DNA of 31,909 bases, from IMG/VR virus record IMGVR_UViG_3300009537_000097, positions 1 through 31,909 of that record; one strand, given 5' to 3'. The position numbers and the translations under genes are program-made. Below are positions 5,297 through 31,166 of this stretch, piece by piece; within the stretch, counting starts at the first letter, position 1; the number at the start of each line of letters is the position of its first letter. Origin of the DNA: a virus. The notes beneath the pieces are model-generated. The model was not told where the DNA came from. It ran no database searches and was given only the letters and a program-made list of their open reading frames with translations.

Positions 5297-5541
5297 TGTC
5301 AGCCGGCCAGTACATTGATATTTTTGACACATACTTCGGTACTAAGCCGACTGTTTTGAGAGTTGATTACGCGTCCGATACCATATGGTACGAAGGCAAG
5401 GCCGAGTCCGGCGCGGCCACTAGCGCTGCCCGCTGGATCATACGCAGATCGACATTAGACAGCCAGGGTCGGATCGTATTGCGCGAATGGGCGCCGTTTA
5501 ACTCCGTTTGGTCAGACCGTGCCAGCTTGACGTACCAATGA
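5296..5541 (+). CDS. small conserved phage protein before the tail fibre
   Basis: An 81-residue protein whose ATG overlaps the DUF1353 stop (TAATG). The segments IWYEGKAESGAATSAARWIIRR and FNSVWSDRASLTYQ recur in short proteins found next to tail-fibre and structural genes of many phages. A compact beta fold is likely; it may be a virion or fibre accessory component. Its stop overlaps the fibre start (ATGA at 5538-5541), so the two are translationally coupled. Confidence 0.7.
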   Translation: MSAGQYIDIFDTYFGTKPTVLRVDYASDTIWYEGKAESGAATSAARWIIRRSTLDSQGRIVLREWAPFNSVWSDRASLTYQ

Positions 5542-9807: not shown

Positions 9808-10137
9808 ATGGAAATGGCGAATAGTGAACCAATGAAATATGTTCCTACGTCTGTTGTCCGGATAACGAAGTCGCAGGCAGCGGAACTTTCTATCGGAGAG
9901 AAGGTGTCGTTACAATTATCCGGTGAGATCCAGGCGTTAAGAAAATCAGATGACTATTACGAGGCTGAGATTAAGGGCGCCAGCGTGAACGGGATTGAAA
10001 TAAACAAAGCTGATCGAGCGATGAACGAAATGACCGGGACAGACAAGGCCATTAAGTCCGCCGCTGATAAGATCGTCAAGGCTATCGCAAAAACGCCGGC
10101 AGACCATTCTCTTGATAGGATAAATTATGGAAAATGA
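9808..10137 (+). CDS. small conserved protein upstream of the portal gene
   Basis: A 109-residue protein with GGAGG seven bases before the ATG. The first half is a small beta domain (VVRITKSQAAELSIGEKVSLQLSGEI, then DDYYEAEIKGASVNG); the second half is a charged helix (DKAIKSAADKIVKAIAK). No signal peptide. It precedes and overlaps the portal gene by 11 bases, so a head-assembly or portal-associated role is plausible, but no family function is known to me. Confidence 0.65.
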   Translation: MEMANSEPMKYVPTSVVRITKSQAAELSIGEKVSLQLSGEIQALRKSDDYYEAEIKGASVNGIEINKADRAMNEMTGTDKAIKSAADKIVKAIAKTPADHSLDRINYGK

Positions 10138-12223
10138 AATTACAGGCATCGGCGAACCGACCGTATCAACGATCCCGCGTACGCTTGAGGATTCCTATCT
10201 TAAGCGGATGGGAAAACTTATCGAACTTTCAGAAGCAGAGGAGAGAAATCTGAAGGCATGGCTTAAGAAGCAGTTAAACGATTGGGAATCGGATACCTCC
10301 GATCTTCATAAGATACTTGAAGAAGATAACGATTTGGTTGAAGGTTACGTTGATGAACCTTCCGGGATATATGAAGGGTGGGGATCAAACGTGCATGTGG
10401 ATGTCACGGGAATTTACATGGAGGTCTACCAGTCCATTGAAAAAAGGTCAATTTTGGGAGCCGACCAGATTTGGTATGCGGTGCCGGACCCGGAGGCTGA
10501 AGACGCTTTTGAAATAGTGGCCGACATAGACGAAATGCTTAATTACAAGGCACGCAACGAATGGAATATATCTCAAGCCATTCCGATGGCGATATGGGCC
10601 AAGAACCGGGATGGATTATGCGCGGTGCAGGTAACATGGGAGGAAAACTATAAAAAGTCTAACGATGTTATTTTAATTACAAGCGAAGATGAATTTATCG
10701 AACGGTTCCCCGCTCCTGAAAGCGCTGGCGTTGACGAAAACCAATGGAAAGAACTGCGCACCTATGTCGCTCAAAACGCCACCGAAGAAACGCCCGTCGA
10801 GATCCCCATTACGTTTAACAAGCTGGTCTATCATGGCAACAAGGCGCACGTTGTTGAATACGCGGATTTCGTTGTCTTGCCGGCTACCGCACCGAACATA
10901 TATGAAGATTGCTGCCGCGGATACGGTAAGCGGTTCCAGGAGTCAAAAGATGAGATCCGGCCAAAGATTAAAGATGAGATTTATTACAAGCAGTCAGCCG
11001 ACAGCCTTTTATCCAAAAAGCCAAAAGAGGTTAATAGTTACGTTCAGTCCAAGGATTATGTCGAAGGATTGAAGCGCAGCCGGGCCAATGGTTACGTTAA
11101 TTTTGAACTGGTGGTTAAGGGCCGCTTGAAAGGCGAAGATGATGAAGAAGGCAAGTATCTCGTTGTCTATAATCTTGAAAACGATATCCTTCTTCGGTGC
11201 GTTGAGTATTTTTACCGTATTGATTTTTACGCTGTTTTTGTCTTAAACAAGCGCCCAAACAGGCTGGGCGGCGTAAGTATTCCACGCAAGACGCGTGAAA
11301 CAAATGAGGAAGTGGACGTTCAGCATAATCAAAGAATTAACTCCCATGCGATCTCTGGCGTTCCTACTTTTATCACCAGCACAGACACGGATTGGGACCC
11401 GCAGGCACCCGAGAACCGGTGGCGACCAGGGCTCAGGATAAAGACCGACAAGCCGTTCCAGCAGTTTATCGTTCAGCCAACCGACCAGGGGAATTCCATG
11501 CAAGAGGAGGCGAATTCGTTCCGTATATTGGACCTTTCCCTTGGCTCTCCCGCCTCGCTATTTAGCGGTCAATCTGACGTAGGCGATCCTAATGCGCCAG
11601 GGAATAAGACCGCCATGCTGATTAACCAAGGGAATATGCGCATGGAGGACGTTTTGGATGAGGACCGGGACGGCGTTTCAATGATCGGCCAGATATGCCT
11701 TTCTCATATGTATCAATTTGGGCAGAATATCATTAAGTGGACATCCTCCAATATCGGTGCAAATGGGCAGACGCTAAGAGAAGTAAGGACCATCCATCGT
11801 AAGTTTCTTGCAAACGATATTAAGATGCACATGAAGGGCATTAACGTCATTAAAAATCCTGAATCGGAAATGGCTAAGGCTGCGGCCAGGCATCAGCTCC
11901 TAATGGCCGAGCCGCTGTTCGCCAATGACGCCGACCTGAGAATAAAATCCCTGCGTGAGGTTTTGAAAGCCGGGCGCGACCCCGTTGCTGACAATCTTCT
12001 TCCACCGGCAGAAGTCGTCCAGCAGAAACAAATCGAACTTCAAAAACAGGCCATTCTTCAGTTGCAGGCAGAAAAGATAATGCAGGAAAAACAAGCGCAG
12101 GAACAGGCGCTTAAAGAGCGAATCGGAAAAGCGCAACAGGATCTTCAGATACGAAGGCTGGCTGAACGATCCGCCGAAGCCAATCTAAGCAACAATACGC
12201 CCGACGAGGTGGCAAATGGATAA
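10127..12223 (+). CDS. portal protein
   Basis: A 698-residue portal of the size used by short-tailed phages. Twelve copies would form the ring at one capsid vertex through which DNA enters and leaves. Supporting segments are DEPSGIYEGWGSNVHVDVTGIYMEVYQSIEKRS (wing entry), the long alpha/beta middle, VSIPRKTRETNEEVDVQHNQRINSHAISGVPTF (stem/clip region) and SPASLFSGQSDVGDPNAPGNKTA, followed by an Arg/Lys-rich helical region. The C-terminal 80 residues are a Gln/Glu/Lys coiled coil (QKQIELQKQAILQLQAEKIMQ), like the barrel helices of P22-type portals. It has no signal peptide. The start ATG lies in the end of the preceding gene; the end overlaps the next gene by eight bases. Confidence 0.85.
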   Translation: MENEITGIGEPTVSTIPRTLEDSYLKRMGKLIELSEAEERNLKAWLKKQLNDWESDTSDLHKILEEDNDLVEGYVDEPSGIYEGWGSNVHVDVTGIYMEVYQSIEKRSILGADQIWYAVPDPEAEDAFEIVADIDEMLNYKARNEWNISQAIPMAIWAKNRDGLCAVQVTWEENYKKSNDVILITSEDEFIERFPAPESAGVDENQWKELRTYVAQNATEETPVEIPITFNKLVYHGNKAHVVEYADFVVLPATAPNIYEDCCRGYGKRFQESKDEIRPKIKDEIYYKQSADSLLSKKPKEVNSYVQSKDYVEGLKRSRANGYVNFELVVKGRLKGEDDEEGKYLVVYNLENDILLRCVEYFYRIDFYAVFVLNKRPNRLGGVSIPRKTRETNEEVDVQHNQRINSHAISGVPTFITSTDTDWDPQAPENRWRPGLRIKTDKPFQQFIVQPTDQGNSMQEEANSFRILDLSLGSPASLFSGQSDVGDPNAPGNKTAMLINQGNMRMEDVLDEDRDGVSMIGQICLSHMYQFGQNIIKWTSSNIGANGQTLREVRTIHRKFLANDIKMHMKGINVIKNPESEMAKAAARHQLLMAEPLFANDADLRIKSLREVLKAGRDPVADNLLPPAEVVQQKQIELQKQAILQLQAEKIMQEKQAQEQALKERIGKAQQDLQIRRLAERSAEANLSNNTPDEVANG

Positions 12224-12925: not shown

Positions 12926-13753
12926 ATGATTATCGACAATGACGGAATGCCGAACGAAAATAAACCGGAAGCCCAGCCTGGGGAGGATACCGATGCCCCT
13001 AAAGATGATATCAATCCGAAAGATACCAACCTTGAGTCTCAGCCGTCCGATGACAAAAATCCTGACGATGGAGGAGAAGATCAAGAAGCTGGAGCAGGCG
13101 GCACAGAAAATGAAGTTCCGGCTCCAGAAGCAGAATCGGCGCCTGAAATAGAGTCGCTTCGCAATCAGATTTCAGAGCTATCCACCAAACTTGAATCCGC
13201 TTTAAGCGCCAAACCGCAGGCGCCCGCTTCCGCTGCACCTCAAGTTGCCGAACTCAGCGACGAACAGTGGCGTGCACATGAGGAAAAACTTGGCGTAGGT
13301 CGGGAAACCATCAAGTATTTCACCAATCAGGCTGTTAAGGTTTACCAGACCTTGCTTGAAAAGATGGATGAGAAGATGGCGCGATACGAGAAAGCGGACG
13401 CGCTCCGCAGCATTTCACGGGACCCAAAATTTTCGGACGCCACCAAGTACCAAAAGGACGTGGACGAGTATCTTGGTCAATTTCATGTTTCTCAGCATGG
13501 CAATCCAGACTTGCTGAAAAATGCCATTTATTACGCCCGTGGCAAGAATATGGGCAAAACTATTAGCAAGGTTCAGTCGCAGGTCGCTCGCAACCCGAAG
13601 ATCGTAGGCGCTGGCCGCCCTTCAGCCCCGGCCCCGACTGCGTCCAAGCCAAAGATCGCAATGACCGCCGGCCAGAAGCATGCCGCGTCCATGTTTGGCG
13701 AGAAGGAATATAACGAGGGCCTGGCCCTGCGAGGCAAGGCGTTCGATGCTTAA
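12926..13753 (+). CDS. scaffold-like protein (probable capsid scaffold)
   Basis: A 275-residue acidic protein placed between portal and capsid genes, the usual scaffold position. The first 70 residues are disordered and rich in Asp, Glu, Pro and Gly; a coiled coil follows (IESLRNQISELSTKLESAL), then a helical core (QWRAHEEKLGVGRETIKYFTNQAVKVYQTLLEKMDEKM) and a basic, Ala/Pro-rich C-terminus, as scaffolds use to contact the shell. AAAGGAG at 12911-12917 lies eight bases before the ATG. It would guide capsid assembly and leave before or during packaging. The call rests on composition and position, not on a named family. Confidence 0.65.
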   Translation: MIIDNDGMPNENKPEAQPGEDTDAPKDDINPKDTNLESQPSDDKNPDDGGEDQEAGAGGTENEVPAPEAESAPEIESLRNQISELSTKLESALSAKPQAPASAAPQVAELSDEQWRAHEEKLGVGRETIKYFTNQAVKVYQTLLEKMDEKMARYEKADALRSISRDPKFSDATKYQKDVDEYLGQFHVSQHGNPDLLKNAIYYARGKNMGKTISKVQSQVARNPKIVGAGRPSAPAPTASKPKIAMTAGQKHAASMFGEKEYNEGLALRGKAFDA

Positions 13754-15044: not shown

Positions 15045-15932
15045 ATGATAGCAGGAACAAATTACCAGGACGCTCTTGAGCCGATAGCGATCAAGAACTT
15101 CCAAGTTGGATACAAAGAGAAGCCGATGGAACGTGACATGATTTACACGGTGAAATCGTCTTCAAAGCTAACTGAGACTTACCTCGAGCTGGGCGATATC
15201 GGCGCGATGGGCGAGTTTTCGGGAGACTTGGAATATGAAGACACGAACCAAGGGTACAAGATGACCATTTCGGTCACTGAACTTGCGAAAGGAATTGAGA
15301 TCCGCAAGCTATTTGTACTCACCGACCAGCTGGATGTGGTGGAAGGACTGCCTAAGCTTCTTGGCCTGGCCGCCCGCCGGCGTCAACGCCGCGACGTGTT
15401 CCAAATCTTCAACGATGCGTTCAACACGTCTCTCTTGACCATTGACGGATTGCAGCTTTGTTCGGCGGCTCATACATCGAACAACGGCGGATCGTCTCAG
15501 GCCAACCGCGTGACCACCGCTTTCTCTGCGGCGAATGTGGAAACCATGCGTCAGAACATGAAAGCGAACATGACAAACACCGACCAGCTGTTCGATTCAA
15601 ACCCGAACATGCTCATTGTGCCCCGCCAGCTGGAAGAAGCGGCTTATGAGCTGATTTCTAGCTCCGGTAAAGTGGACACCGCCAACAACAACGCGAACTT
15701 CCATAAGGGTAAGTACAAGCTGCTGGTATCCGATGAACTAGACGACGTTAATAACTTCTTCGTCGTCGACTCGGAGCTGATGAAAATGATGAACCGCTGG
15801 AACACCGTTGCCAACCTGGAATTCAAACAGGCCGAGAACTTCAACGGTATTTCCGCTCGCTACCTGGCCTATATGGTCTACGGTCGCGGAAGCACGGACT
15901 GGCGCTGGGTTGAAGGGGCGGAAGTTTCTTAA
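15045..15932 (+). CDS. major capsid protein (HK97 fold, Mu gpT-like)
   Basis: A 295-residue protein of the Mu gpT-like major head group. Signature regions are the E-loop/N-arm part (GEFSGDLEYEDTNQGYKMTISVTELAKGIEI), the spine helix (GLPKLLGLAARRRQRRDVFQIFNDAFN), TIDGLQLCSAAHT, the P-domain strand SNPNMLIVPRQLEEAAYELI and the A-domain YKLLVSDELDD...NFFVVDSELMKM, ending in RYLAYMVYGRGSTDWRWVEG. It would form the icosahedral shell with scaffold and portal, probably with folding help from the GroES-like protein. GGGAGGG lies before the ATG. No signal peptide. Confidence 0.9.
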   Translation: MIAGTNYQDALEPIAIKNFQVGYKEKPMERDMIYTVKSSSKLTETYLELGDIGAMGEFSGDLEYEDTNQGYKMTISVTELAKGIEIRKLFVLTDQLDVVEGLPKLLGLAARRRQRRDVFQIFNDAFNTSLLTIDGLQLCSAAHTSNNGGSSQANRVTTAFSAANVETMRQNMKANMTNTDQLFDSNPNMLIVPRQLEEAAYELISSSGKVDTANNNANFHKGKYKLLVSDELDDVNNFFVVDSELMKMMNRWNTVANLEFKQAENFNGISARYLAYMVYGRGSTDWRWVEGAEVS

Positions 15933-16488: not shown

Positions 16489-17073
16489 ATGAAATTTAAG
16501 AAAGCAGGATTGTTTGTTCTAGGAATCGTAGCTGTTGGCGTATCGTTGCTTTATGCGGCTAATTACGTTCAGCGGTTCACCGTGGCTGGAAGCCAGGTGT
16601 GGCTGATTGATAACGACGGCTCGACCATGCAGTCCGGTCCCCACAAATTCGGCAATAACGCGACCGCAACAAGCGTTACGGTCCCAACGGTAACTACAGG
16701 TTCTAATTTTTCTACTTATGTCCCCGTTTATAACGTCGGCGCCGCGGCAACTCAGGGCGATGTCCTGATCGCGTCCAATACGGGCACGGGGTACGTTGCC
16801 GTGGCTCCTGCGACCACCGATCTGACCAGCATTGTCGGCGTTTCAGCCGGTTCGATTGCATCCGGCGCTATTGGCTGGATGATCCCGCGCGGCGGCGGTT
16901 TTGCCGTTGTTAAAACAACCGGGACAGTTTCCATTGGCGATACCTTGGTTTCAACGTCCAGCGCTGCGGGATACCTCACGGGAGACGCCACGCCAACCAC
17001 CGGCGCTGACGTTGCGACCGCTATGTCGGCAGGCACCGCAGCCGGCGGAACCGTACTAGCGATTCTTCACTAA
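16489..17073 (+). CDS. decoration-like protein (DUF2190-type) with signal peptide
   Basis: A 194-residue protein with GGAGGAGG before its ATG and a clear signal peptide: MKFKK, a hydrophobic core containing GLFVLGIVAVGVSLL and the site LYA/AN near residue 23. The mature protein is Thr/Ser/Val/Gly-rich. Its C-terminal 100 residues (GDVLIASNTGTGYVAVAP, GVSAGSIASGAIGWMIPRGG, GDTLVSTSSAAGYLTG, GGTVLAILH) follow the small beta-barrel of DUF2190-type capsid decoration proteins, which bind the outer capsid face. A decoration protein with a Sec signal is not expected if capsids mature only in the cytoplasm. It is the first of three consecutive head-tail genes with signal peptides. Confidence 0.75.
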   Translation: MKFKKAGLFVLGIVAVGVSLLYAANYVQRFTVAGSQVWLIDNDGSTMQSGPHKFGNNATATSVTVPTVTTGSNFSTYVPVYNVGAAATQGDVLIASNTGTGYVAVAPATTDLTSIVGVSAGSIASGAIGWMIPRGGGFAVVKTTGTVSIGDTLVSTSSAAGYLTGDATPTTGADVATAMSAGTAAGGTVLAILH

Positions 17074-17095
17074 AAAATAAAAGGAGGCCACCAAA

Positions 17096-17839
17096 ATGAA
17101 GCGGATATTCAAACCGCTCATCACGGTCATCCTTTTATTCTCAGCACAGTTTGCATGGTCGCTGACATTATCCGAGATCCGGACCGAAATAAGACGCAAC
17201 GTTCGTGATACCGCGACCGTCGCAACGCTCCGGACATATTCAGATACCACTTTAAATACGCTCATTAACCAGGCTCAAGACGAAATCGTTAACCAGACCT
17301 GGTGCGTAACGACCTCAACGTCTTACGCGCTGTTGGCCTCCACGAGCTACTACAACCTCCCAACAGACTTCATCGCGCCTGAAGTCGTTACCTTCGCTGG
17401 GTCCACGGGCGTTTCCTACGAGTTAAAAGAGGCCGCCAGACGCAGTTTCATCCAGCAGAACCCGGACTGGCTCAGGCAAAGAGGCCCCCCGGCCCAATAC
17501 ATCATTCAGCAGTCCCTATCCGGCGGCAACCCACTGCTCATCTCCTACTATCCCATCCCATCATCCACTCAGATTGGAACAGTCACCATTACCTACTATA
17601 AACAGGTCGATGACCTATCCTCTGATTCCGACGTTCCCTTTGACGGACTCAATCACCTTTACCCTTTTCACCGGACCATCGTCTACGAGGTGACAGCAAA
17701 ACTGAAATTTATTGAAGGGCTGAGCGCTGAAGGATCGACTTATATCCAGCTCTACCAGTCCGACCTTGCCATCATGGCCAAAAGGCTTTCGACGAGTCCG
17801 AATTATAGTCCTGGCATCGTAGCCGGCCCGGCCAGATGA
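17096..17839 (+). CDS. head-tail adaptor protein with signal peptide
   Basis: A 247-residue adaptor of the type that forms a ring under the portal of short-tailed phages. Evidence is the opening TLSEIRTEIRRNVRD, then YSDTTLNTLINQAQDEIV, the strand SYYNLPTDFIAPEVVTF and a late helical region (FHRTIVYEVTAKLKFIEG). Ahead of this lies a Sec signal peptide of about 22 residues (MKR, a core containing LITVILLF, site AWS/LT). The family's usual start (a TLSEIR-like segment) comes immediately after the predicted cleavage, so the signal is an addition to an otherwise ordinary adaptor. AAAGGAGG lies before the ATG; the end overlaps the next gene (ATGA). Confidence 0.8.
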   Translation: MKRIFKPLITVILLFSAQFAWSLTLSEIRTEIRRNVRDTATVATLRTYSDTTLNTLINQAQDEIVNQTWCVTTSTSYALLASTSYYNLPTDFIAPEVVTFAGSTGVSYELKEAARRSFIQQNPDWLRQRGPPAQYIIQQSLSGGNPLLISYYPIPSSTQIGTVTITYYKQVDDLSSDSDVPFDGLNHLYPFHRTIVYEVTAKLKFIEGLSAEGSTYIQLYQSDLAIMAKRLSTSPNYSPGIVAGPAR

Positions 17840-20322
17840 AGAAGCTGCTCCTCGCCTTCTTCCTGGCCTCCGCGCCCCTGGCCGGCCCGGCCGGGGCGGA
17901 AGTTATTAACATCGCCAAATTCGGAGGTATAAATACCGACGAATCCCCTTTGGCCCTGCAAAACGGTCAATCCCCCGACTCTGAGAACGTCCTTACGGAC
18001 AATGGAGTAGGACTTCAGCCGAGAGAAGGGTTTGTTCAATTTTCAACGGAACCTTCACGCGGATTGTGGTCGTTTGGAAAGACGGACGGAACCCGGTATC
18101 TGATTGCGGTTTCCAGCGGGCACTTGAAAGCAACAACTGGAAGCAACTTCACGATTCAGATTGCGACTGTATCCACAACGGTGGCCACCCGCGGCGTCAC
18201 ATTGGGGAACACGTTTTATTTCATGAATACCGTCGATGGTCTAAAGGCATGGGACGGAACAGCCACGACTACGGTTGATCCGACAAAAAAGGGGATCGCG
18301 ATAGCCGCCTATAAAGGGCGTTTGGTTATCGGCGGAGTAACGGGAAGCGAGCGCACGATTTATCTGTCCCGGTATCTAAACGGTCAGGATTTTACCCTTC
18401 CTTCAACGGAAGACGATACGGCCCCCGCCCAAATCGTTGCTGCAGGGGCACTGGATGAGGGGATATCGGGTTTTTATGGGACTTTTTTGGACCGCTTAAT
18501 GATCTTCAAGCCCAATTCCACGCAGAGCCTTTCAGGAAGCCGAAGAAGCAATTTCAGCTTGCGCACGATCTCGGATTCCGTCGGTCTGACGGATGGAGAA
18601 AGCGTTCGTGATTGCGACGGGAAATTGAGATGGCTTTCAAGAGGCAGAAAGATCTACGAATTCGACGGAGCGTCGTTCTATAAGATCTCCGAGGACGTTG
18701 ACGAGATGTTCGCCGACATTGAACAGGGTGATTCCGCCAGCCGAGAAAATACGCAGACAACTCAATCTGATTTTTCCTCTGGGTCCATAAATTTCCCGAA
18801 TAGCTTGTCGGTAAGTTATTTGCCGGGAAGCGTTCTCATGCCTTTCCCGGATAATTTTTCAACATATAGAAAGGTCGGAGGTACCGATCCGCAGATATGG
18901 GCGGAATTTTTGAGTGCAAATTCAACAGCCTACCTTTCTTCTGGCGGGCTAAGATTGCAAGCGACTAATTTTTCTACAGCAACTATTCAAACAAATGAAA
19001 TTGCAATTAGCACAACTGCCATCGCATCCGGAGTCACTGTTCAATTTTTATTGAGAGATATTGGCACATCCGTCTTTTTTGAACGTCAACTTTTACATTT
19101 TGTAATTTCTACTATGACCGTTTCAGAAATAAAAAGTAAATGCTACGGAACGCCAACGAGCTGCGCCACAGATGATTCTGTATGGTTTTATCGTTGGACA
19201 TCCACCTCATCATTGACAGCAAAATTAAATCTTGGGCGAAATTTTAAGGTCGGAGATGAACCTGTGTATACGGCTGCAACGACGGTTTTGCCAGCTACCT
19301 ATACATTTGTTTTAAATGCGACGAATTATATTTTTAAAATAAACAATTCAGTAAACAAGTCCGGGGCTCATTCATTTTCAAATGTCAGTCCGTTTTATCT
19401 GTCTTTCTGGTTAAAAGACAATGATTCAACAGACCCATCAACAGAATATGCCGTTATTGATAATGTTCGCATAGACGCATCGACATCTGTTTTTACGTCT
19501 AATGTGATTGATGCTGGGGATGCCATTTCATCTTGGGGACCGACTGTTATCTCTGAGACAAATCAAGAAGGTGTTATTTCCTATCAAATTAATTCGTCAT
19601 CTCAATCAGTCTTATCCCTATTTAATCCTTCAAGCTGGACAAGCCTAACGAATGGCGTCGCCCCGTCAATCGGAGTTAATAGGTATCTTGCCTATCGAGC
19701 TATTTTTTACTCAACAAATGCAACAACTTCCGCAAGCCTTGATTCATTATCTGTTAATTGGAATGAGGGGTCTGTTTTAAAAACCGTTTCCGCTTACTCC
19801 AATCAGAGGTATTGGTTGGGCGTTTCCGTTTCCTCGACGGTCAACAACAAGGTCTTCGTCTACGACAAGAAAAATCAATGGCAGAGATTTTCAGGAATTA
19901 ACGCCGATGCCATGACGATCTATAACTCAAACCTTTATTTCGGCAATCCCTACGGTATATTTCAGGCGGAAATCGGCACAACGGACAACGGCTCCGCCAT
20001 CTCCGCTTATTACAAGACCAAGCCTTTGGCAGGCACCAGCTTGGATTTGGGAAACACCTATTCAAAACTGAGGATGACCACGGAAAGAAGCGATGATACC
20101 TTGGGTACGAGTTTCCGCATCGACGGCGACGACACCGATTACAGTCTGGGAAGTTATCAGATGAACCAGAACCCCGGCATCCAAAACTTTAAACTCCCGT
20201 TCTCGTCGGGCGAAGTCCAATCCGGCAGGTACATCGATTTCAAATGGAGTGTTTCGGGTACGACGTTTTGGAGAATCCTAAACGGGAATTTGTACTTCGA
20301 TCCCGATGTCGTGGTAGAATAA
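17836..20322 (+). CDS. tail nozzle/stopper-type protein with signal peptide
   Basis: An 828-residue protein coupled to the adaptor by an ATGA overlap, the same order as the two tubular tail genes of T7-like phages. After a signal peptide (MKK, core LLLAFFLASAPL, site AGA/EV near 21) it begins IAKFGGINTDESPLALQNGQSPDSENVLTD and LQPREGF, typical of the beta-propeller nozzle group. Propeller-like repeats follow (NTFYFMNTVDGLKAWDGT, KGRLVIGGV, YGTFLDRLMIFK, KLRWLSRGRKIYEFDG). Residues about 310-650 are an AT-richer, Ser/Thr-rich insertion resembling a lectin-type beta sandwich (AVIDNVRIDAS). The propeller resumes at YSNQRYWLGVSV and VFVYDKKNQWQRFSG. It would form the lower tail and seal the DNA exit. 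Confidence 0.75.
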   Translation: MKKLLLAFFLASAPLAGPAGAEVINIAKFGGINTDESPLALQNGQSPDSENVLTDNGVGLQPREGFVQFSTEPSRGLWSFGKTDGTRYLIAVSSGHLKATTGSNFTIQIATVSTTVATRGVTLGNTFYFMNTVDGLKAWDGTATTTVDPTKKGIAIAAYKGRLVIGGVTGSERTIYLSRYLNGQDFTLPSTEDDTAPAQIVAAGALDEGISGFYGTFLDRLMIFKPNSTQSLSGSRRSNFSLRTISDSVGLTDGESVRDCDGKLRWLSRGRKIYEFDGASFYKISEDVDEMFADIEQGDSASRENTQTTQSDFSSGSINFPNSLSVSYLPGSVLMPFPDNFSTYRKVGGTDPQIWAEFLSANSTAYLSSGGLRLQATNFSTATIQTNEIAISTTAIASGVTVQFLLRDIGTSVFFERQLLHFVISTMTVSEIKSKCYGTPTSCATDDSVWFYRWTSTSSLTAKLNLGRNFKVGDEPVYTAATTVLPATYTFVLNATNYIFKINNSVNKSGAHSFSNVSPFYLSFWLKDNDSTDPSTEYAVIDNVRIDASTSVFTSNVIDAGDAISSWGPTVISETNQEGVISYQINSSSQSVLSLFNPSSWTSLTNGVAPSIGVNRYLAYRAIFYSTNATTSASLDSLSVNWNEGSVLKTVSAYSNQRYWLGVSVSSTVNNKVFVYDKKNQWQRFSGINADAMTIYNSNLYFGNPYGIFQAEIGTTDNGSAISAYYKTKPLAGTSLDLGNTYSKLRMTTERSDDTLGTSFRIDGDDTDYSLGSYQMNQNPGIQNFKLPFSSGEVQSGRYIDFKWSVSGTTFWRILNGNLYFDPDVVVE

Positions 20323-21921: not shown

Positions 21922-24900
21922 ATGGCGCTTGTTCCGCTTGAGGAATCAACGCGCCGCCGAAGGCTGGTCCCGATTGACGAACCCGTCAAACGTAAGCTGG
22001 TCCCGATTGGCGACCGGGAAGCAGGGGTTTTAGACCAACCACCGGGATTCCCGGTAAGAAGCGCTATTCGCACCGCGATCAAAAGCCTGCCTTTCCAGAA
22101 CCTGCCGCCTGAAGTTGAGCGGCTTGGCAGGGCCGAGGCTGCCGGCACGGCCAGGAGCGCGGCTGGTATCCTGCCGTTAATTCAAGGCGGACTTAAGCGA
22201 ACACCATTGGCCCCGCTTGTACCTGAGGGCGATGTATCCGGGCCTTTAATTCGAGCAGCCGAAAGAATCGAGCCGAAAGACCAGGGTTTTATCGAAAAAC
22301 TTCTTTCCGGGCGGATGTCCGATTCGGAACTTTTGGACAGTATTCGCTCCGTGTCGCCTTTAATATCGCAAGCGAGCCCGCTTACAGGTGCCGCCTTATC
22401 TAAAATCCCGACCGAAGAAAGCATCCTGGCTGAATCAGCTTCCAGTGGTCAGGTTCCTTACGGACAAATTTTGACCCGCGCACTGGCTGAAGGGTTTATC
22501 GGTGCTGTCCGGCCTTTGCTTCCAACCAATCCGGTCGAACTGGCCAATCTTGCCGCAGCTCCGCCATCCGTAAAATTTCTTCAAAACGAATTCCCGATTT
22601 TGAGCCGCGATATTGTCGGTATGATCCTTAAAAACAGGGTTAAAGTTCCGGACGAAAAGCTACCGGAAATAATGAAAAATACATTTGAAGTCGGAATGGA
22701 TTCCTACACGAAAGGCGCCTCCGCTCCGCAGGCCAGGAAGGCCATGCTCCAAAACTTTGAGCAGGAAGCCGCGTCCGCTCGCGGTCAAGCAGAGGCTGGT
22801 ATTCGCTCAAGACAAGGAGCGCCGCAGACCGGAACGCTTCCTTCCACCAGAGCGCCCGGCGGAATTCCGGTGACGGAATTGGAGATTCCCGGTAAGGTTC
22901 AGCGTAATGTCGATATTGCCATTGATACCATCAGTAAGGCATTGGGGAAGAAACCGTCTGCCGGGCCTATCGAGGCGCAGGGAACGGTTTTAGGTGAAGA
23001 AGACATATCCGGTATTGCTGGAATTGCAAAGCCGCCGCCTACCCGTCCTATCCAGCAAACACCGTATTCCTCCATTGTCACACCTGAAGGCGCTCAAAAC
23101 ATCGCCTCCAAGTTCCCGGCCATCTCAACCGTATTGGAAGGCCAGAACCTTCCCTTATCACCACAGGATGCCCAAAAAATTATTAAAAAGGCCAATGCCG
23201 TAGGCGAGGAGGCCCTGATCCGTGGTGCAACACCAGGACAGGCCAATGCGGCCGCTGGCGAGGCGTTAAAGGCCACTCTCATGCCCAAGTTGCAGCAGTT
23301 GGCCCAGGCCAAAACACCAAAGCCAAAAACCGTCAAATACGATAAACGGGGTGTCCCGATCCTTAAGCCCGGTTCGGTCGTTTTAACGGTTCAAGACGAA
23401 TCTGGCAAACCAATCAGGATAAAGCACAAGGACGCGCTCGAGTACGCTGAAGGGTTGCATCGGGAAGCTATGGAGAAATGGGAATTTATTAAAAACGATC
23501 CCGTTCGGTCCGCTATCGCCAGAGTTGGGATCGCGCCCGAGCGGCCGGATCAGTTTGGAATTTCCCCTGAGAGCGGTGAGTACGAACGGCTGCCAAAGAA
23601 CGCAAAGAACAAAAACGGAAGGACTGTTACGGAATGGGTCGAGAATCTTAACGAAGGAAAGGCGGAGCAGGATATAGATGCAAGCTATGTCTACGATATT
23701 GCAAAAAATCTTGAGGTCCCGCCCAAGCCAAAAATGGGCGATTCTTACCGGCAGGCGATACATGATCTCGAAGGCGAGCTGTCCGGCCTGTCAACCTACC
23801 AGCCACCGACCGCAGGCGCTTTTGAGGCGCGTGCCGCTTACGCTGAAAGTGCTCAGCCGTTTTACTCCCCGCTGAAACGCGCCATCGAAGCCAAGATGCC
23901 TAACCGGGCGCCGGCGCAGATGGTCAAGAACATCGTAAACAGCCAGGACGTGAAAAAGGAGGAAACCGACTGGATCGAAATCAACGAATGGCTGGACCAG
24001 CAGAAGGGCCCGGTATCAAAAGAGTCTGTCCTTAAATTCATTGATGACAATACCGTTGAGATTGAAGAAGTGGTCAAGGGTGACAAGTCCACGGATTTGA
24101 TCCGAAGGTTCACCCAGCAGATTGAAGAAAAAGGGTACGGGGTTATAAGGCACGACGACGGCGGCTACGAGGTTTACAAGGACGGCCGGTTCCTGCTTGA
24201 CGACGAACTGCCTAAAGACGTTAAGAACCTCTCCGAGCTTTTACAGAAAGCCATAGCGAAAGAAGGGACAAGCAACACGAAATTTGAGAAGTACACGCTT
24301 CCGGGGGGAGAGAACTACAGGGAGGTGTTGCTGACGCTGCCGGAAAAGGTTCCGGATAAATTGCCGGAAGGATTTTATACAAATAAAACTTCGTATGGAT
24401 GGGAGATTGTGAATCGGGAAGGCGGTCGATTCGCGATGCCTACGCAACCGACGGAAACGTTGGCGGTCGAGAAATTTAATCAGGCGCTTAGTGCGGAAGG
24501 CGGTTTTCGTTCTGCTCACTTCCCCGAACCCAACATCCTCGCCCACATCCGGATTGACGACCGCATAGACACTCAGGGCAACAAGGTTCTTTTCATTGAG
24601 GAGATTCAGTCTGATTGGGGGCAAAAATTAAGAGAGAGCGCTGACCTCAGGAAAGTTTCCAAGCCAGAGAGTGTTTCTAAACTTGCGACCGATTTCTTCG
24701 GCAGAGAGATAGCGTCCGGTATTTCTTTCAATCAAATGGATGGTGGCGTGCTGGCTCTTGCTGACAACGATCAGATTAAGCGGGCGATTATCTCGCTTTT
24801 GCCCATTGATATGGTGAATCAACTCGGTGGGAAGGAGGCGGCGACCAAGAAGTTTCTCAGCAATCCGTCGATGATCGGCGCGGACCTCCCCATCGATGCT

Positions 24901-27900
24901 CGTCTTACGGTGGCGCAAGGGATTCTCGATGCGGCGCGCCAAACTTTTGCAAGCACGCGAACAAAACTTCTTGCCGGGCTTAAGGCTGGGCGGGACATAG
25001 AGCTTCTTCCCGCATTGAAGGCAAGTAATCTCACAGCCCGCGAAGTTATAAGCACGCTTTCCCCTCAGAGCCTTTATCATGTGGACCTGTCTCAGGAGGC
25101 CGTCGGTGGCAACATAGCAAGGGGAGGAGCAGAAATATCCTCCGCGCCCGATCTTGCTATACGGGACACGAAACGACTTCCCGCAACCGACGCAGAATTT
25201 CTCAATGCTCCAATTCCGGCAAGCATAAGCGCAAAATCTGGCCGCGGACAATCTTCCGATCTTCGTGGTGAACTTTCTTCCACAAGTATTGCAAAAGCGC
25301 TGGACTGGCATAATCATATTATATCAGAAACAGGCGTTTCAAAACCAGTTAATTACAAGACTGCTAATTTGCCAAAAATGCCTTTTGAAAAATCATGGAT
25401 GGATCTTAGCCTCAAACGAATTCTGCGTTTTGCCGCCGAGAACGGCTACGATTCCATCGCGTGGACCACGGGTTCCCAGCAGGCGGAGCGGTATGACCTG
25501 AGCAAACAGGTAAATAAAATTGAATTTAATAAAACTCGCGATGGCCAATGGGTTGATGTAAATATTTACACACCCGACAGAAAAGAACCTATTAGATATG
25601 GTGATTTAACACATGAAAAATTGAAGGATACCGTCGGAAAAGAACTGGCTCAAAAAATTGTTGATTCAAAAGAAACGCGCGGAGATTTCTCCGGCCTCGA
25701 CCTAAAAATCGGCGGCGAAGGCATGAAAGGTTTTTACGACCAGATGATTCCCTCCTTCCTAAACAAGTACACGAAGAAGTGGGGCGGGAGAGTGGGGGAG
25801 ACAACCTTCCCGGAACAACGCATTGGCGATTTGCCTGCGCCGACGGCCCGTTCTTTTACGGCGCATAGTCTTGATATTACTCCAAGCATGAAGGAGTCCG
25901 TCCTGCAAGGCCAGTCCCTCTTTGAAAAGACTGGCGATCCCTACCAACAGGAGTTAAACTTTGCCGGTGGACAAGAAACCGGTAATTTACCAGCCCAGCC
26001 AGGAACGCCTCCTGGTCCCCGACCAACCGTGCGAGGTGGTTTTAAGGCCATATACAACCCGCACATCGAAGTTAAGTACAAGAAAGTCGGGTCCATCGTC
26101 ATCCCCAACCAAGTCCTCCAGGAACCAGCCGACCTTGCCTATGCGTTCAAAGAATTAAAGAACGAAGCTCAGGAGAATTTCTTTCTTGCCGCCATGAAAA
26201 ACGGCAGGATTGTAGCCGTTGAGCATTTGGGCTTCGGAACCATCGACCAGGTGGCTGTTTACCCTTACGAAACCATCAACCTTATAAACAAAACGGAAGC
26301 GGATTCGTTTCTAATTGTTCATAACCATCCGTCCGGTGAAATTAGCCCATCTCAAGAAGATAAAAATCTAACTATGGCTATTAAAAGAGCCATTGAAAAC
26401 AGCGGCGCGAAATTTAATGGCCATGTCATTATTAACGATGGAAAGTTTGGTTTTATAAATAAAGACATGGGCGTTTCCGAAGGTATTCAAAAGGAATACG
26501 AAAAGACGAAAAACATTTCCGTTTTGAAGAAGTATTTCGAGTGGTCGACAACCAAGGGAGAAATTGCGTCAAGACCGCTGCTAAGCTCGCCGGATAAAGT
26601 TTTTGAAGTATTCAAAGGGATTCAAACAGGCGCGGATGAAGGCGTGGCCTACCTTCTGGATGTTCAAAATAGAACGTTGAACGCGGTTGTCCTACCGCAT
26701 GGCCGGTTTAATACTGGAACAATCCAAAATATCGCCACGTCCTATCGTGCCGCGGGCATTGTTTTAGTTAACTCGAAACTTACAAATAGGGAAGCCGCGT
26801 CATTAAAGGGCGAATTGGGAACGGCTGGCATCCGCTTAATGGATGACATTGAGCTTGACCCGACATTTCGCGGATACAAATCAAGGATCGAGTCGGGAGT
26901 GTTTGAGTCTCCTTCACCTTACAGCTACGGAGCCAAGGAAGATACCGGCGAATTCTTCGGGATCGAGAAGGAGAACGTCGCCGACAAGTACATGCGCCTG
27001 CGCCGGGAGGCGATGAACCAGGGCATGAGCCATTCCGAAGCCATGAAATGGGCCAAAGCCAGGCTCCGCGGCGAGCCGGAGGGCGCCCCCACATCTGAAA
27101 TTAAACCGGCCCAGTCCGAGTTTACCGTTGAAGGCGGGGTCCAGAGTTTCGGCAAAGGAAAGAAAGGCGAGTCCGACATGTTCGGGAGCAAGGGCGGATC
27201 GGTTATCGACGCATTTGAGCCCATCGAAACGCCGGAAACCATCGCGGCCCGAAAGAATTTCAAGCTGGCCGACCGGGCGCTTGAGGTGGTCCGCAAGTTC
27301 GCGGGCCGGATCGGCGAGAAGTACCAGATGCGCGGCGCGCAAGGCCATTTTAATCCCAGGACGAACAATATCCGGATCAACTCCATGAACAACGTGTCCA
27401 CCGTGACCCATGAGGTGGTCCACTTCCTTGACCAGAAGTTCGGGTTCATCAAACCGCTCATGGAAAAGACCGGTGTATCGAGAACCGGCAACCCGATTTA
27501 CAGCCAACGCTGGGCCGCGATGCGCAAAGCCATCACGCAGGCTTACATCGAGTATTACCCTGGGGCCAGGAAGGAGCATAAGCTCCAAAAGAGACTGGCT
27601 GAAGGGCTGGCTGCCTTTATTCAGCAGTACGCCCAGTCACCTTCAACGGTGAGTGCGAAATACCCCGACCTGTCCAAAGTCCTTTTGGGTGAATTCTCCG
27701 CGAATATGGCTGTTCCCCCGGAATGGAAGGCGTCTGCGCCACAATTCAAGGAACTGGTTGATGATGTCCGCAAGATAGCCTCGGACTACCAGAAACTCGA
27801 CCCCAACGAAAAGATCGGGGCTAGGGTGGCTGAAGGGTTAAGGCAGGAGAATGAAAAGCTGCCGTTCATGTCGAAATCAGATTATCTCAAAACCGAAACC

Positions 27901-30510
27901 ATTGACGACGTGTTCCCCATTAAACGGTTAGCTCAAGAGTTTGGGAAAGCAGGCACAAAAGCGGACCCTGCGGATTGGATACGCGTATTTAACGCAGTCA
28001 ACTCCATCATTTACGGCAACCTTCGCGGGAAACTCGGCGTAGCCAGTAAAGTGTCGGGCGTGTTTTCGGGCCGGCACGGGTTCTGGTCGTTCAAGAACGG
28101 CCAGCCCATCAAAGTGAGCGAAACGAACTGGCGCGATTTGGAAAAGTCCTTGCGGGACGCCGGACTGCGGGAACAATTTCGTAATTGGCTGATCGCAAGG
28201 GACCAGCATTTCCTCCATTTGGAACTGGACAAAAAGCATCGAGCCGCGGAAGAAGCCGCCAAAATCCTGGCTGGGGCAAGAGAAGGCGAACAGATAGCAG
28301 GCAAAGATGTTGAGGAATTAAAAAAGGCTATCAAGGATTTCGCTGAATTGCGCGAGCAGCTGGCAAAGAACAGGATACCAAGACAGCTGGCGATAAGCGC
28401 CTACGAACAGGACAAGGACATCATGGCGCCGTTCGCCAAAGAGTTCGACACGTTTACTAGGGCGATGGTGGACCTGGCCGGCGATCCGACGGTCGGTCTT
28501 TTAACTCCCGACCAGGTGGCTCAATATCATTCGAGAGAAGGCTACGCGCCGCTTAAACGTGATGTGTTTGACGATATTTTGGCCGGAGAAAGTTCGTTTG
28601 GCGGCGGCCGGTCGATCAAGCCGTCATCTTTCAAGCAGCGAACGGGCAGCGAACTCCCCATCATCGACCCATTGTTTTCGTTCCCGCATGACATGGCCGA
28701 GGTGTTCCGTAAGTCCATTAAGCAACTGGTAATTAACAAGGTCGCCAATATCCTTGAAGAATTCCCCCAGTCCGGGCTGGCCGAACCGCAGCAGTTAAAG
28801 CCGTTTGTGGACAAGGAAACCGGGAAGATATCCTACCCTCAAGAACGGGACCCGAATATCCTCATGGCCAGGAGCCCGGACGGAAAAAGAAAACCTTATC
28901 TGGTAAACGCGGAGCTGAAAAAGGTTATCGAGGAGCTGCTGGATTACCGGAGCGCGGACATCCTCGCCCGGATCATGCGCGGGACCAGCCGTATCTTTAC
29001 AGCCAGCACGACCGGGCTTTATCCTCCGTTCGCTCTTATGAACGTTATCAGCGACCAGATTCAAGCCGCGTCGAACTCGATGCACAAAACGATCCCGTTC
29101 TTTAGCACGGTTAAAGTCTTGCGCAAAGTCCTTTTCGATCACGAATCTCCAGAAGCCAGGTTCGCAGCCGAGTATCTTGCGATGGGCGGCGACAGGCAGA
29201 CTATAACCAATGCGTTAAGCCTCCCTCCGGAGGAATTTGACCAGTGGCTGATGCAGGAGAAGAAGGGACTGGATCATCTGGTTGACTGGCTGGATACAGG
29301 TTCCGAGATTCTTGGGTTCCCGTCGAAGGTGAGCGAACTTTCCACCAGAATGGTTGAGTACATCCGTTCCCGGATGGCCGGCAAGGAATATGTGAACGCT
29401 TTGGAGGACGCTGGAATGGTTACAGGTCCGTTTCATCATCAGGGGCGACTGGTTCTAACTAAACGTGGCAGGGTTCGAGGCCAGCAGACGCCCATGACCA
29501 CACTGGTCCGCAGTATTCCGTTCTTTAACGCCGGGGTCCAGTCCATAAGGGTCCATATCGAATCGCTCAAAGGGTCAAGGGGCGAGAACGTAAGGAATCG
29601 GGCGATGTTCGTTGTGATGGCGTCGATGGCCGCGGCGATTGCGTCCTCGTATTGGATCATGAAGAAGGCGACCAAAGAGCAGAAGAATCTTTACACCGAA
29701 CTGGACCCGCAGGAACTGGCGAGCTATATATGGCTCCCGGCCGCAGACGGGAAGCGGTTAACGAAAATAAAGATGTACGGCCCTCAAATGGGGCTGGCGA
29801 CCGTATTCAATATGGGCATGTGGGAAATGGCGGGTGAAACAAGCTATGTCGGAGGCGAGTACGCCGATGCCGGGACCGCCTGGCTTCCGGACCAACTTAC
29901 TATCGGATCGCCTTCCAGGCTGTTCTTCTCCTGGCTGCCGCAGATCATTAAGCCGTGGATGGAAACTCTAACCGGAGTCAAGGTCTGGCCGTCGGTCCGG
30001 CCGCTTGAAACGATGGGCATGAAGAACCAGGAGCCTCGGTTCCGGTTCCATGAGCGGACCCCGGAATACGCCAAATGGCTAGGCGATAAACTGAACCTCT
30101 CACCGGTAAAAATTGACCACCTGATCGAAGGGCTCATGGGCCGCGGGACGCGCCCCTTTCTTGGCAAGGAGATCAAGAACCCGTTTATGCGGGAATGGTA
30201 TTTTACGGCCGGCAGGACGCTTCAAGACTATTACGAACAGCGCGAGGAATCGAATGGACTTTACAACTCGTTACAGAAAGGCGAACGGGAGTTCACTCTG
30301 GACGAAACCGTTAAGATTATCAAGCAGCGCCAGCAGATCCACGGCAAGCCGGCCAAGCGAGGGCAGAAGGGCGAGCCGGGCATAGACGATTTGATTAAAC
30401 GATACCGCGATTTGAATAAAACCGGCGTGCCGGACGAAGATCAGGACGCGATCAGAGATTTGATACTGGAGAGGATATCCACGTTTAGGCAGGGAGTGAA
30501 GCTGAAATGA
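21922..30510 (+). CDS. giant polyvalent protein with RadC/JAMM and zincin-type domains
   Basis: A 2,862-residue multidomain protein of the phage polyvalent class, whose members are thought to enter the host with the DNA and counter defences. Parts in order: LVP[LI] repeats (3-29); long helical and linker regions; a large-polyvalent domain start (FYSPLKRAIEAKMP, KEETDWIEINEWL); HIRIDDRIDTQGNKVLFIEEIQSDWGQ (about 875-901); an insert carrying the antisense HNH gene (about 904-1130); the domain's second half (AAENGYDSIAWTTGSQQAERYDLSK, DLKIGGEGMKGFYD, up to about 1320); a RadC/JAMM peptidase-like domain with complete H1467-N-H1469, S1477, D1480; a second RadC-like unit without these residues (about 1571-1645); HEVVH at 1830-1834; helical regions; and a C-terminal LPD38-like domain from RSIPFFNAGVQSIRV (about 2530). 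There is no signal peptide. Domain calls are by motif only. Confidence 0.85.
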   Translation: MALVPLEESTRRRRLVPIDEPVKRKLVPIGDREAGVLDQPPGFPVRSAIRTAIKSLPFQNLPPEVERLGRAEAAGTARSAAGILPLIQGGLKRTPLAPLVPEGDVSGPLIRAAERIEPKDQGFIEKLLSGRMSDSELLDSIRSVSPLISQASPLTGAALSKIPTEESILAESASSGQVPYGQILTRALAEGFIGAVRPLLPTNPVELANLAAAPPSVKFLQNEFPILSRDIVGMILKNRVKVPDEKLPEIMKNTFEVGMDSYTKGASAPQARKAMLQNFEQEAASARGQAEAGIRSRQGAPQTGTLPSTRAPGGIPVTELEIPGKVQRNVDIAIDTISKALGKKPSAGPIEAQGTVLGEEDISGIAGIAKPPPTRPIQQTPYSSIVTPEGAQNIASKFPAISTVLEGQNLPLSPQDAQKIIKKANAVGEEALIRGATPGQANAAAGEALKATLMPKLQQLAQAKTPKPKTVKYDKRGVPILKPGSVVLTVQDESGKPIRIKHKDALEYAEGLHREAMEKWEFIKNDPVRSAIARVGIAPERPDQFGISPESGEYERLPKNAKNKNGRTVTEWVENLNEGKAEQDIDASYVYDIAKNLEVPPKPKMGDSYRQAIHDLEGELSGLSTYQPPTAGAFEARAAYAESAQPFYSPLKRAIEAKMPNRAPAQMVKNIVNSQDVKKEETDWIEINEWLDQQKGPVSKESVLKFIDDNTVEIEEVVKGDKSTDLIRRFTQQIEEKGYGVIRHDDGGYEVYKDGRFLLDDELPKDVKNLSELLQKAIAKEGTSNTKFEKYTLPGGENYREVLLTLPEKVPDKLPEGFYTNKTSYGWEIVNREGGRFAMPTQPTETLAVEKFNQALSAEGGFRSAHFPEPNILAHIRIDDRIDTQGNKVLFIEEIQSDWGQKLRESADLRKVSKPESVSKLATDFFGREIASGISFNQMDGGVLALADNDQIKRAIISLLPIDMVNQLGGKEAATKKFLSNPSMIGADLPIDARLTVAQGILDAARQTFASTRTKLLAGLKAGRDIELLPALKASNLTAREVISTLSPQSLYHVDLSQEAVGGNIARGGAEISSAPDLAIRDTKRLPATDAEFLNAPIPASISAKSGRGQSSDLRGELSSTSIAKALDWHNHIISETGVSKPVNYKTANLPKMPFEKSWMDLSLKRILRFAAENGYDSIAWTTGSQQAERYDLSKQVNKIEFNKTRDGQWVDVNIYTPDRKEPIRYGDLTHEKLKDTVGKELAQKIVDSKETRGDFSGLDLKIGGEGMKGFYDQMIPSFLNKYTKKWGGRVGETTFPEQRIGDLPAPTARSFTAHSLDITPSMKESVLQGQSLFEKTGDPYQQELNFAGGQETGNLPAQPGTPPGPRPTVRGGFKAIYNPHIEVKYKKVGSIVIPNQVLQEPADLAYAFKELKNEAQENFFLAAMKNGRIVAVEHLGFGTIDQVAVYPYETINLINKTEADSFLIVHNHPSGEISPSQEDKNLTMAIKRAIENSGAKFNGHVIINDGKFGFINKDMGVSEGIQKEYEKTKNISVLKKYFEWSTTKGEIASRPLLSSPDKVFEVFKGIQTGADEGVAYLLDVQNRTLNAVVLPHGRFNTGTIQNIATSYRAAGIVLVNSKLTNREAASLKGELGTAGIRLMDDIELDPTFRGYKSRIESGVFESPSPYSYGAKEDTGEFFGIEKENVADKYMRLRREAMNQGMSHSEAMKWAKARLRGEPEGAPTSEIKPAQSEFTVEGGVQSFGKGKKGESDMFGSKGGSVIDAFEPIETPETIAARKNFKLADRALEVVRKFAGRIGEKYQMRGAQGHFNPRTNNIRINSMNNVSTVTHEVVHFLDQKFGFIKPLMEKTGVSRTGNPIYSQRWAAMRKAITQAYIEYYPGARKEHKLQKRLAEGLAAFIQQYAQSPSTVSAKYPDLSKVLLGEFSANMAVPPEWKASAPQFKELVDDVRKIASDYQKLDPNEKIGARVAEGLRQENEKLPFMSKSDYLKTETIDDVFPIKRLAQEFGKAGTKADPADWIRVFNAVNSIIYGNLRGKLGVASKVSGVFSGRHGFWSFKNGQPIKVSETNWRDLEKSLRDAGLREQFRNWLIARDQHFLHLELDKKHRAAEEAAKILAGAREGEQIAGKDVEELKKAIKDFAELREQLAKNRIPRQLAISAYEQDKDIMAPFAKEFDTFTRAMVDLAGDPTVGLLTPDQVAQYHSREGYAPLKRDVFDDILAGESSFGGGRSIKPSSFKQRTGSELPIIDPLFSFPHDMAEVFRKSIKQLVINKVANILEEFPQSGLAEPQQLKPFVDKETGKISYPQERDPNILMARSPDGKRKPYLVNAELKKVIEELLDYRSADILARIMRGTSRIFTASTTGLYPPFALMNVISDQIQAASNSMHKTIPFFSTVKVLRKVLFDHESPEARFAAEYLAMGGDRQTITNALSLPPEEFDQWLMQEKKGLDHLVDWLDTGSEILGFPSKVSELSTRMVEYIRSRMAGKEYVNALEDAGMVTGPFHHQGRLVLTKRGRVRGQQTPMTTLVRSIPFFNAGVQSIRVHIESLKGSRGENVRNRAMFVVMASMAAAIASSYWIMKKATKEQKNLYTELDPQELASYIWLPAADGKRLTKIKMYGPQMGLATVFNMGMWEMAGETSYVGGEYADAGTAWLPDQLTIGSPSRLFFSWLPQIIKPWMETLTGVKVWPSVRPLETMGMKNQEPRFRFHERTPEYAKWLGDKLNLSPVKIDHLIEGLMGRGTRPFLGKEIKNPFMREWYFTAGRTLQDYYEQREESNGLYNSLQKGEREFTLDETVKIIKQRQQIHGKPAKRGQKGEPGIDDLIKRYRDLNKTGVPDEDQDAIRDLILERISTFRQGVKLK
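24628..25317 (-). CDS. three-zinc-ribbon HNH endonuclease nested antisense in the giant gene
   Basis: A 229-residue protein on the minus strand, wholly inside the polyvalent gene. Three zinc ribbons of the form C-x2-C-x16/17-C-x3-C are visible (C9/C12/C29/C33, C42/C45/C63/C67, C99/C102/C119/C123), the last Cys pairs each in an FC-x3-C setting. An HNH domain follows: ELIHHINGQKRDNRPLNL, with H168-H169, N181 and H190. This is the build of free-standing HNH homing-type endonucleases. Its codons pair exactly with those of the + strand frame, which stays open throughout, so it uses no TTA, CTA or TCA codon. No ribosome site precedes ATG 25317 or ATG 25311, but TGATATAAT lies just upstream. It probably arrived as a mobile gene; whether it is expressed is unknown. 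Confidence 0.85.
   Translation of the reverse strand: MIMPVQRFCNTCGRKFTTKIGRLSAARFCAYACRNWSIEKFCVGCGKSFRVPYSKIGRGGYFCSSPCYVATDGLLRQVHMIKALRGKRAYNFAGCEITCLQCGKKLYVPPSLKPGKKFCSRACKSLARRIENPLRHRKTSIDGEVRADHRRIAEKLLGRRLLPTELIHHINGQKRDNRPLNLIVVSKSQHATIHLIERNTGRYLSAEEIGRKFRNTLWLGNFPEVSALS
25318..25326 (-). promoter_or_regulatory. putative extended -10 promoter for the HNH gene
   Basis: On the minus strand, TGATATAAT (25326 down to 25318) is a perfect extended -10 sequence and is followed at once by ATG 25317. A start point about seven bases on would fall at the second ATG (25311), giving a leaderless message beginning at Met3 of the listed protein. There is no good -35 sequence. The bases also encode sense codons of the giant gene. 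Confidence 0.3.
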
Positions 30511-31166
30511 AACGCCCCTTAATGTTCCTTGCGTTTTTCACCATGCTCACTCTGTCACATGGAGCCGAGCAGCCGCCCTACGATGTCAAAGATCCGGCCG
30601 TCTCCGAGAATTTCAGGGAAATCTATCGCGATGTCGATTCACTTCAGAAAGAGACTTCTGTTCTGACCACCAACACCTCTGGCCAAATCCTTTTAGGCCA
30701 GGGCACCGGCGCTGTTCCGATATGGGGGTTTAGGGGGATTGGAAGAATTTCAGTGGTAGCTGGTACCACAACAGGCTCCACAACATCATCGTCATTTGCG
30801 GCCATGACATCTTCAGCCACAATTACACCCAGTTCAACGGCAAGCCGGATACTGGTAATTGCAAACGGGCGCCTTCACAATAGCGCTGTCCAAACAGATT
30901 CTTGCTATGCCACGTTGTGGAATGTGACAGGCGACTACAATATGGCCGGTTCCAATGGCCGGGCGGAGATTGGGTTCAGCGGGTTCCTTGACGCTTCTGC
31001 AATGGCTACTCCTGCGACATTGCTACACATGGATAGTCCGGCAACAACGTCCCCGGTAACGTATCAAGTGCGTTTAAGGAATAGCGCCGGAGGGATTACC
31101 TGTTCGTGGGGCGGATCGAATTCTGAGCCTGCAATGATTCTAATGGAGGTTTTAACGCCGCCATGA
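30507..31166 (+). CDS. fibre/spike-type protein with signal peptide
   Basis: A 219-residue protein overlapping the giant gene's stop (ATGA). Signal peptide: MKRP, a hydrophobic core LMFLAFFTMLTL and a site at SHG/AE or GA/EQ (about residue 19-20). The mature N-terminus (DPAVSENFREIYRDVDSLQKE) is the short helical virion-attachment segment seen in small phage fibres. The rest is Ser/Thr/Ala-rich beta (SFAAMTSSATITPSSTASRILVIANGRLH, YQVRLRNSAGG), as in receptor-binding heads. It is probably a second, shorter adhesin next to the fibre at 5538. One Cys pair (DSCYA, ITCSW) may form a disulfide after export. Confidence 0.75.
   Translation: MKRPLMFLAFFTMLTLSHGAEQPPYDVKDPAVSENFREIYRDVDSLQKETSVLTTNTSGQILLGQGTGAVPIWGFRGIGRISVVAGTTTGSTTSSSFAAMTSSATITPSSTASRILVIANGRLHNSAVQTDSCYATLWNVTGDYNMAGSNGRAEIGFSGFLDASAMATPATLLHMDSPATTSPVTYQVRLRNSAGGITCSWGGSNSEPAMILMEVLTPP

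Follow-up and report, generated by a model that had tools for sequence, protein, structure and literature searches.

The virus record IMGVR_UViG_3300009537_000097 of IMG/VR (31,909 bases, analysed over its full length and referred to as the window; 34 genes were counted) contains three consecutive genes for head and tail parts whose products begin with segments resembling Sec signal peptides. The first encodes a protein of 194 amino acids (aa) in the decoration or head-fibre position (16489..17073, +), with the signal MKFKKAGLFVLGIVAVGVSLLYA and AN after the predicted cut. The second encodes a 247-aa head-tail adaptor (17096..17839, +; MKRIFKPLITVILLFSAQFAWS followed by LTLSEIR), and the third an 828-aa nozzle-like tail protein (17836..20322, +; MKKLLLAFFLASAPLAGPAGA followed by EVINI). 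Such N-termini are also present on a 203-aa protein with no assigned role (2904..3515, +; MKRLKLFLPLIAAMLFVSISHA before D), an 884-aa tail fibre or spike (5538..8192, +; MKRAILIVTLFLSGPLLA before E), a 219-aa tail fibre-like protein (30507..31166, +; MKRPLMFLAFFTMLTLSHG before A), and a 186-aa protein with no assigned role (31163..31723, +; MKKLVVFFVTILISTSSWS before D). In the open reading frame (ORF) at 3525..4085 (+), the signal segment is internal, and the signalled product would start at 3651 or 3615 (VIKLMTVLLLVCVSAKA before A). The C-terminal part of the 5538 protein resembles the tail spike of Pseudanabaena phage Pam5, and the 30507 family gave a match to the tail fibre family phrog_4492 (E 8e-41).

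Every N-terminus was scored with a home-made scheme for the n-, h-, and c-regions of signal peptides, based on charge, core hydrophobicity, and the −3/−1 site. As a benchmark, 47 kb of sequence from E. coli K-12 was scored: its known Sec proteins gave 8.0–9.5, its cytoplasmic proteins did not exceed 6.9, and two of its inner-membrane proteins were also above 8. Seven of the 34 window genes scored 7.5–10.0: 2904 (10.0), 5538 (9.0), 16489 (9.9), 17096 (10.0), 17836 (9.9), 30507 (7.5), and 31163 (8.7). The 3525 ORF, scored from its internal starts, gave 9.4–11.0. Composition-preserving residue shuffles reached at least 7.5 in 0.33% of trials, corresponding to about 0.1 gene expected in the window, and the top score among 83 non-coding ORFs was 6.7. 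Of the 18 window genes encoding 150 aa or more, 7 scored 7.5 or higher, compared with 3.9% of genes of this size in unrelated phage loci. The seven N-termini resemble real Sec signals, far above chance. By sequence, they have the basic n-region, the hydrophobic core, and the small −3 and −1 residues of signal peptidase I substrates. Lipoprotein (signal peptidase II) signals were rejected, as the +1 residues of 16489, 17096, and 17836 are A, L, and E and not cysteine.

No signal was found on the terminase large subunit (1019..2461, +; the real start lies upstream of 1019), the portal-like protein (698 aa, 10127..12223, +; assigned from position and size), the scaffold-like protein (12926..13753, +; assigned from its position ahead of the capsid gene), the major capsid protein (Mu gpT-like, 15045..15932, +; PF10124 E 2e-13, phrog_371 E 2e-18), or the polyvalent protein (RadC-like JAB, LPD38; 2862 aa, 21922..30510, +). 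An earlier note, made from the DNA letters alone, had placed signals on the same seven genes and within 3525 and had denied them to these five proteins; both claims held, with scores far from the background level that would have spoken against them.

The signal segments are translated. Shine-Dalgarno motifs are located 5–8 bases ahead of 2904 (AGGAG), 16489 (AGGAGG, 5 nucleotides), and 17096 (AAGGAGG, 8 nucleotides). The starts of 5538, 17836, 30507, and 31163 overlap the stop of the preceding gene by four bases; for the nozzle, this is an ATGA overlap with the adaptor stop. None of the signalled window genes has a start backed by a Shine-Dalgarno motif downstream of the annotated one. Since start codons are absent from residues 11 to 66 of the adaptor, its hydrophobic stretch must be translated. 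An annotation artefact was rejected because downstream starts lack Shine-Dalgarno support. It is very improbable that the leaders lack a function and reflect either random hydrophobicity at the N-terminus or faulty annotation: the scorer does pass some inner-membrane proteins, but the start codons, the enrichment, and the conservation in related contigs contradict this explanation.

Three related contigs from other metagenomes were compared with the window, giving four contigs in all. G001 (L034) was found by scanning with a portion of the polyvalent protein, and L122 and L124 by scanning with a portal alignment. Single-protein scans of IMG/VR with the nozzle, adaptor, or portal gave no matches, nor did a scan of GTDB genomes with the capsid. 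Identity to these kin was 42–46% for the portal and 54–69% for the capsid. A chimeric contig was rejected, the window having the gene order of G001, L122, and L124. When the window was compared with the nearest kin copy, 7 families had a signal on both sides, 1 had it only in the window, and 14 had none (Fisher p 5e-5, for families that are few and share ancestry). None of the 14 unsignalled families gained a signal in kin; the terminase, GroES-like protein, portal, scaffold, 14277, capsid, and 15958 had no signal in the four contigs.

The gene at the 16489 position was signalled in all four contigs (9.6 in G001, 10.1 in L122, and 9.1 in L124). The 2904 family was signalled in three (homologues 9.2 in G001 and 9.9 in L122), as were the fibres with the YNxxTG motif (window 5538, G001, and L124). 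The adaptor, nozzle, 30507, and 3525 families were signalled in both contigs covering them, the window and G001, with a score of 8.5 for the G001 homologue of 30507. The earlier note had named, as an outcome against it, homologues starting downstream of the hydrophobic segments with their own ribosome sites; this outcome did not arise, and the G001 adaptor and nozzle homologues are themselves signalled.

The kin signals have diverged in sequence and kept the n-h-c anatomy. Between the window and G001, the adaptor signal is identical at 7 of 20 positions compared with 47% for the mature protein. Signal peptides are usually less conserved than the mature protein. The short nozzle signal (10 of 18) and the rest of that protein (41%) are about equally conserved. 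At 3525–3700 of the window, a single ORF encodes a short soluble stretch (MDINKFAKRVAF...) that continues in frame into the signalled protein. The signalled part of the G001 homologue starts at the corresponding place, at an internal ATG with AAGGAGG within another long ORF, and 3525 is possibly a nested or internal-start gene.

The assignment of 17096 as a head-tail adaptor was confirmed by profile and fold. It matched PF24175 (SU10_adaptor) with E 2e-20 and 74.3 bits, compared with a curated cut-off of 27, and the G001 protein gave 73.4 bits. The predicted model (predicted local distance difference test, pLDDT, 74; predicted template modelling score 0.64; first 20 residues poorly modelled) matched 8jov, 9k09, 7z47, and 8zkk at E of about 1e-8, and the connector proteins of GP4, cyanophage A4, SU10, and VP1. 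All 20 PDB matches at E ≤ 0.001 were phage portal, neck, connector, or tail complexes. The SU10_adaptor alignment starts from profile position 2, which corresponds to residue 24 of 17096 and to residue 22 of the G001 protein. The L120 and L121 adaptors start with MNFGEIR or MNLKEIR, compared with LTLSEIR after the predicted cut in 17096. By these alignments, the adaptor signal is an N-terminal extension added to the canonical protein, with the domain beginning at the predicted mature N-terminus. SU10-type adaptors (SU10, GP4, cyanophage A4, VP1, and KHP30) share with 17096 the domain, the place beside a nozzle-like gene, and the fold; the sampled ones start at the domain, whereas 17096 has a 22-residue Sec-type signal before it. 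Adaptors in two dozen other phage contigs, found with an iterative profile and in several cases near-identical, had no signal, nor did nozzle homologues outside the lineage found with an iterative profile in fetched phage loci. GenBank phages gave no adaptor match and one weak nozzle match. The nozzle label derives from remote homology and gene order: the iterative profile of 17836 reaches an L031 protein annotated as "phage stabilization protein" and unsignalled homologues in the nozzle position, and the predicted model has a pLDDT of 33. For 16489, "decoration" derives from the position after the capsid and weak similarity, including a weak hhalign match to L122 12394 (probability 29%).

The earlier note had considered either a targeting tag removed by signal peptidase or a retained anchor. 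For 21 signals, the best −3/−1 score after the core was matched by only 1 of 2000 shuffles, and the signalled mature proteins have no second membrane-length hydrophobic segment. The enriched site motif, the absence of a second segment, and the agreement of the predicted adaptor mature start with the canonical start of its family make cleavage by signal peptidase more probable than an anchor that is kept. Alternatively, the parts may keep N-terminal anchors that hold them to the inner membrane from the periplasmic side, perhaps like signal-anchor-release endolysins. Collapse of the proton-motive force would then free unprocessed parts to join heads, and the peptide would perhaps be kept in the virion for entry. 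The hydrophobic cores are strong, the 3525 ORF could encode a cytoplasmic domain joined to a membrane anchor, and phages are well known to use signal-anchor-release sequences (PMC6116005, PMC3765740). Such sequences have no cleavage site, whereas here, by sequence, a site motif is present and commoner after the core than composition predicts, and the predicted mature start of the adaptor is also where its family canonically begins. This alternative is considered unlikely. Export for disulfide formation was rejected because the signalled proteins lack conserved cysteines.

The late module runs in the order terminase, GroES-like gene, fibre-side genes, lysis-type genes, portal, scaffold, and capsid, followed by 15958, 16489, adaptor, nozzle, 20338, 21268, polyvalent protein, 30507, and 31163. 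In P22-like phages, the portal, scaffold, capsid, and ejection proteins build the procapsid, the terminase fills it, and the adaptor, nozzle, and fibres are then added. Among window proteins to which a role can be assigned, signals occur only on parts added after DNA packaging; 2904, 3525, and 31163 are without an assigned role. The earlier note had described a split by virion location. The division into signalled and unsignalled parts stood; before versus after packaging describes it better than outer versus inner.

Head completion in tailed phages is taken to occur in the cytoplasm. We give about even chances to the proposal that, in a podovirus-like lineage, the late head-completion and tail parts gained cleavable Sec signals and are exported and joined to heads at lysis. 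The terminase, portal, scaffold, capsid, and polyvalent protein would stay in the cytoplasm, where procapsids would be built and filled with DNA. The decoration or head-fibre protein, adaptor, nozzle, and fibres would cross the inner membrane via Sec, and signal peptidase I would trim the leader, whereby the adaptor would regain the N-terminus canonical in its family. Export would hold the connector apart from the portals until packaging is finished. Filled heads would meet the periplasmic parts once lysis breaches the inner membrane, with completion there or outside. Periplasmic completion of the heads, as suggested in the earlier note, is a reasonable hypothesis. Two candidate single-transmembrane, holin-like proteins are encoded at 9052 and 9321. 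Since canonical holin holes are micron-scale (PMC6116005), filled heads could pass. Sec also exports a phage endolysin, Lys44 (PMC6116005). The full two-compartment scheme, with heads built and filled in the cytoplasm, connector, nozzle, and fibres secreted, trimmed, and attached after the inner membrane opens, and completion thus coupled to lysis, is put forward tentatively, at somewhat below even chances.

Several points weigh against export-coupled assembly. In well-studied tailed phages, adaptors close the filled heads in the cytoplasm, and heads without adaptors leak DNA. Filled heads would therefore need another way to hold their DNA until lysis. The scorer alone cannot tell signals from N-terminal anchors, the adaptor and nozzle are covered by two contigs only, and the 31163 signal is missing from a shorter G001 homologue. 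The cysteines, being non-conserved, do not suggest that the proteins are adapted to an oxidising compartment. The signals would also fit any other lumen accessible to Sec, such as that of an unusual host cell plan or of a membrane compartment made by the phage, which the late parts would enter and in which particles would mature during infection rather than at lysis; among the window genes, none was recognised as membrane-shaping, and this explanation is given little probability.

Related polyvalent genes are present at 79 other loci. A strongly signalled protein is encoded at 8 of them, and in about 5 cases it looks fibre- or lectin-like (e.g. L043 and L087). The polyvalent-protein phages L043, L087, L061, and L095 resemble the window in having signals on fibre- or lectin-like genes near virion genes; L043 differs in that its adaptor- and nozzle-position genes have no signals. 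Signals on fibres may be more widespread, and the present lineage may extend them to the adaptor and nozzle. Export of fibres and connectors could instead serve a role other than assembly, such as receptor blocking or action on the envelope, while an unexported share builds virions in the cytoplasm. The occasional signals on fibre- or lectin-like proteins of sampled phages whose adaptor and nozzle are unsignalled (L043) agree with such a role, but it leaves the adaptor and nozzle signals of the window unexplained, and a cytoplasmic copy would need a start behind the leader with its own ribosome site, of which there is none; it is regarded as improbable. Runs of signalled proteins adjoin virion genes at 18384–21210 of L087 and 117–3615 of L043, some with Laminin_G_3 lectin domains.

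Compared with head completion in P22 (gp4 adaptor, gp10 nozzle, and fibres), the order of parts and their late role are alike; P22 parts are completed in the cytoplasm, whereas the late parts here bear export signals. Sec-exported endolysins such as Lys44 and signal-anchor-release endolysins are likewise late phage proteins that use host Sec and wait outside the cytoplasm (PMC6116005); they are lysis enzymes, whereas the signalled proteins here include conserved virion structural proteins. No report of signals on connector proteins was found in open-licence full-text literature, of which coverage was incomplete; the matches were lysis enzymes or per-genome counts. If export-coupled assembly is correct, compartment, besides the order of protein-protein contacts, could time head completion. 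It would allow the time of connector binding to be probed directly, and would set apart, as a class, those phage parts that travel via Sec and can thus be reached from the periplasm. Particles finished outside the cytoplasm would differ from known tailed phages.

Some other features of the window were observed. Terminase homology extends upstream past the first ATG/GTG/TTG (780–1019). A GroES-like phage co-chaperonin adjoins the terminase at 2517–2891; it is common to the kin and also present in the Manatee Spring podovirus MW202785. The polyvalent protein contains no cysteines, and neither does its 2253-aa kin protein. A 229-aa HNH_3 endonuclease ORF (E 5e-9; 24628–25317, −) lies antisense within the polyvalent gene. 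The plus-strand frame of the polyvalent gene remains open through this ORF, and G001 has only a short unrelated linker at that place. The HNH_3 ORF has the appearance of a homing endonuclease inserted into the polyvalent gene, whose reading frame tolerates it.

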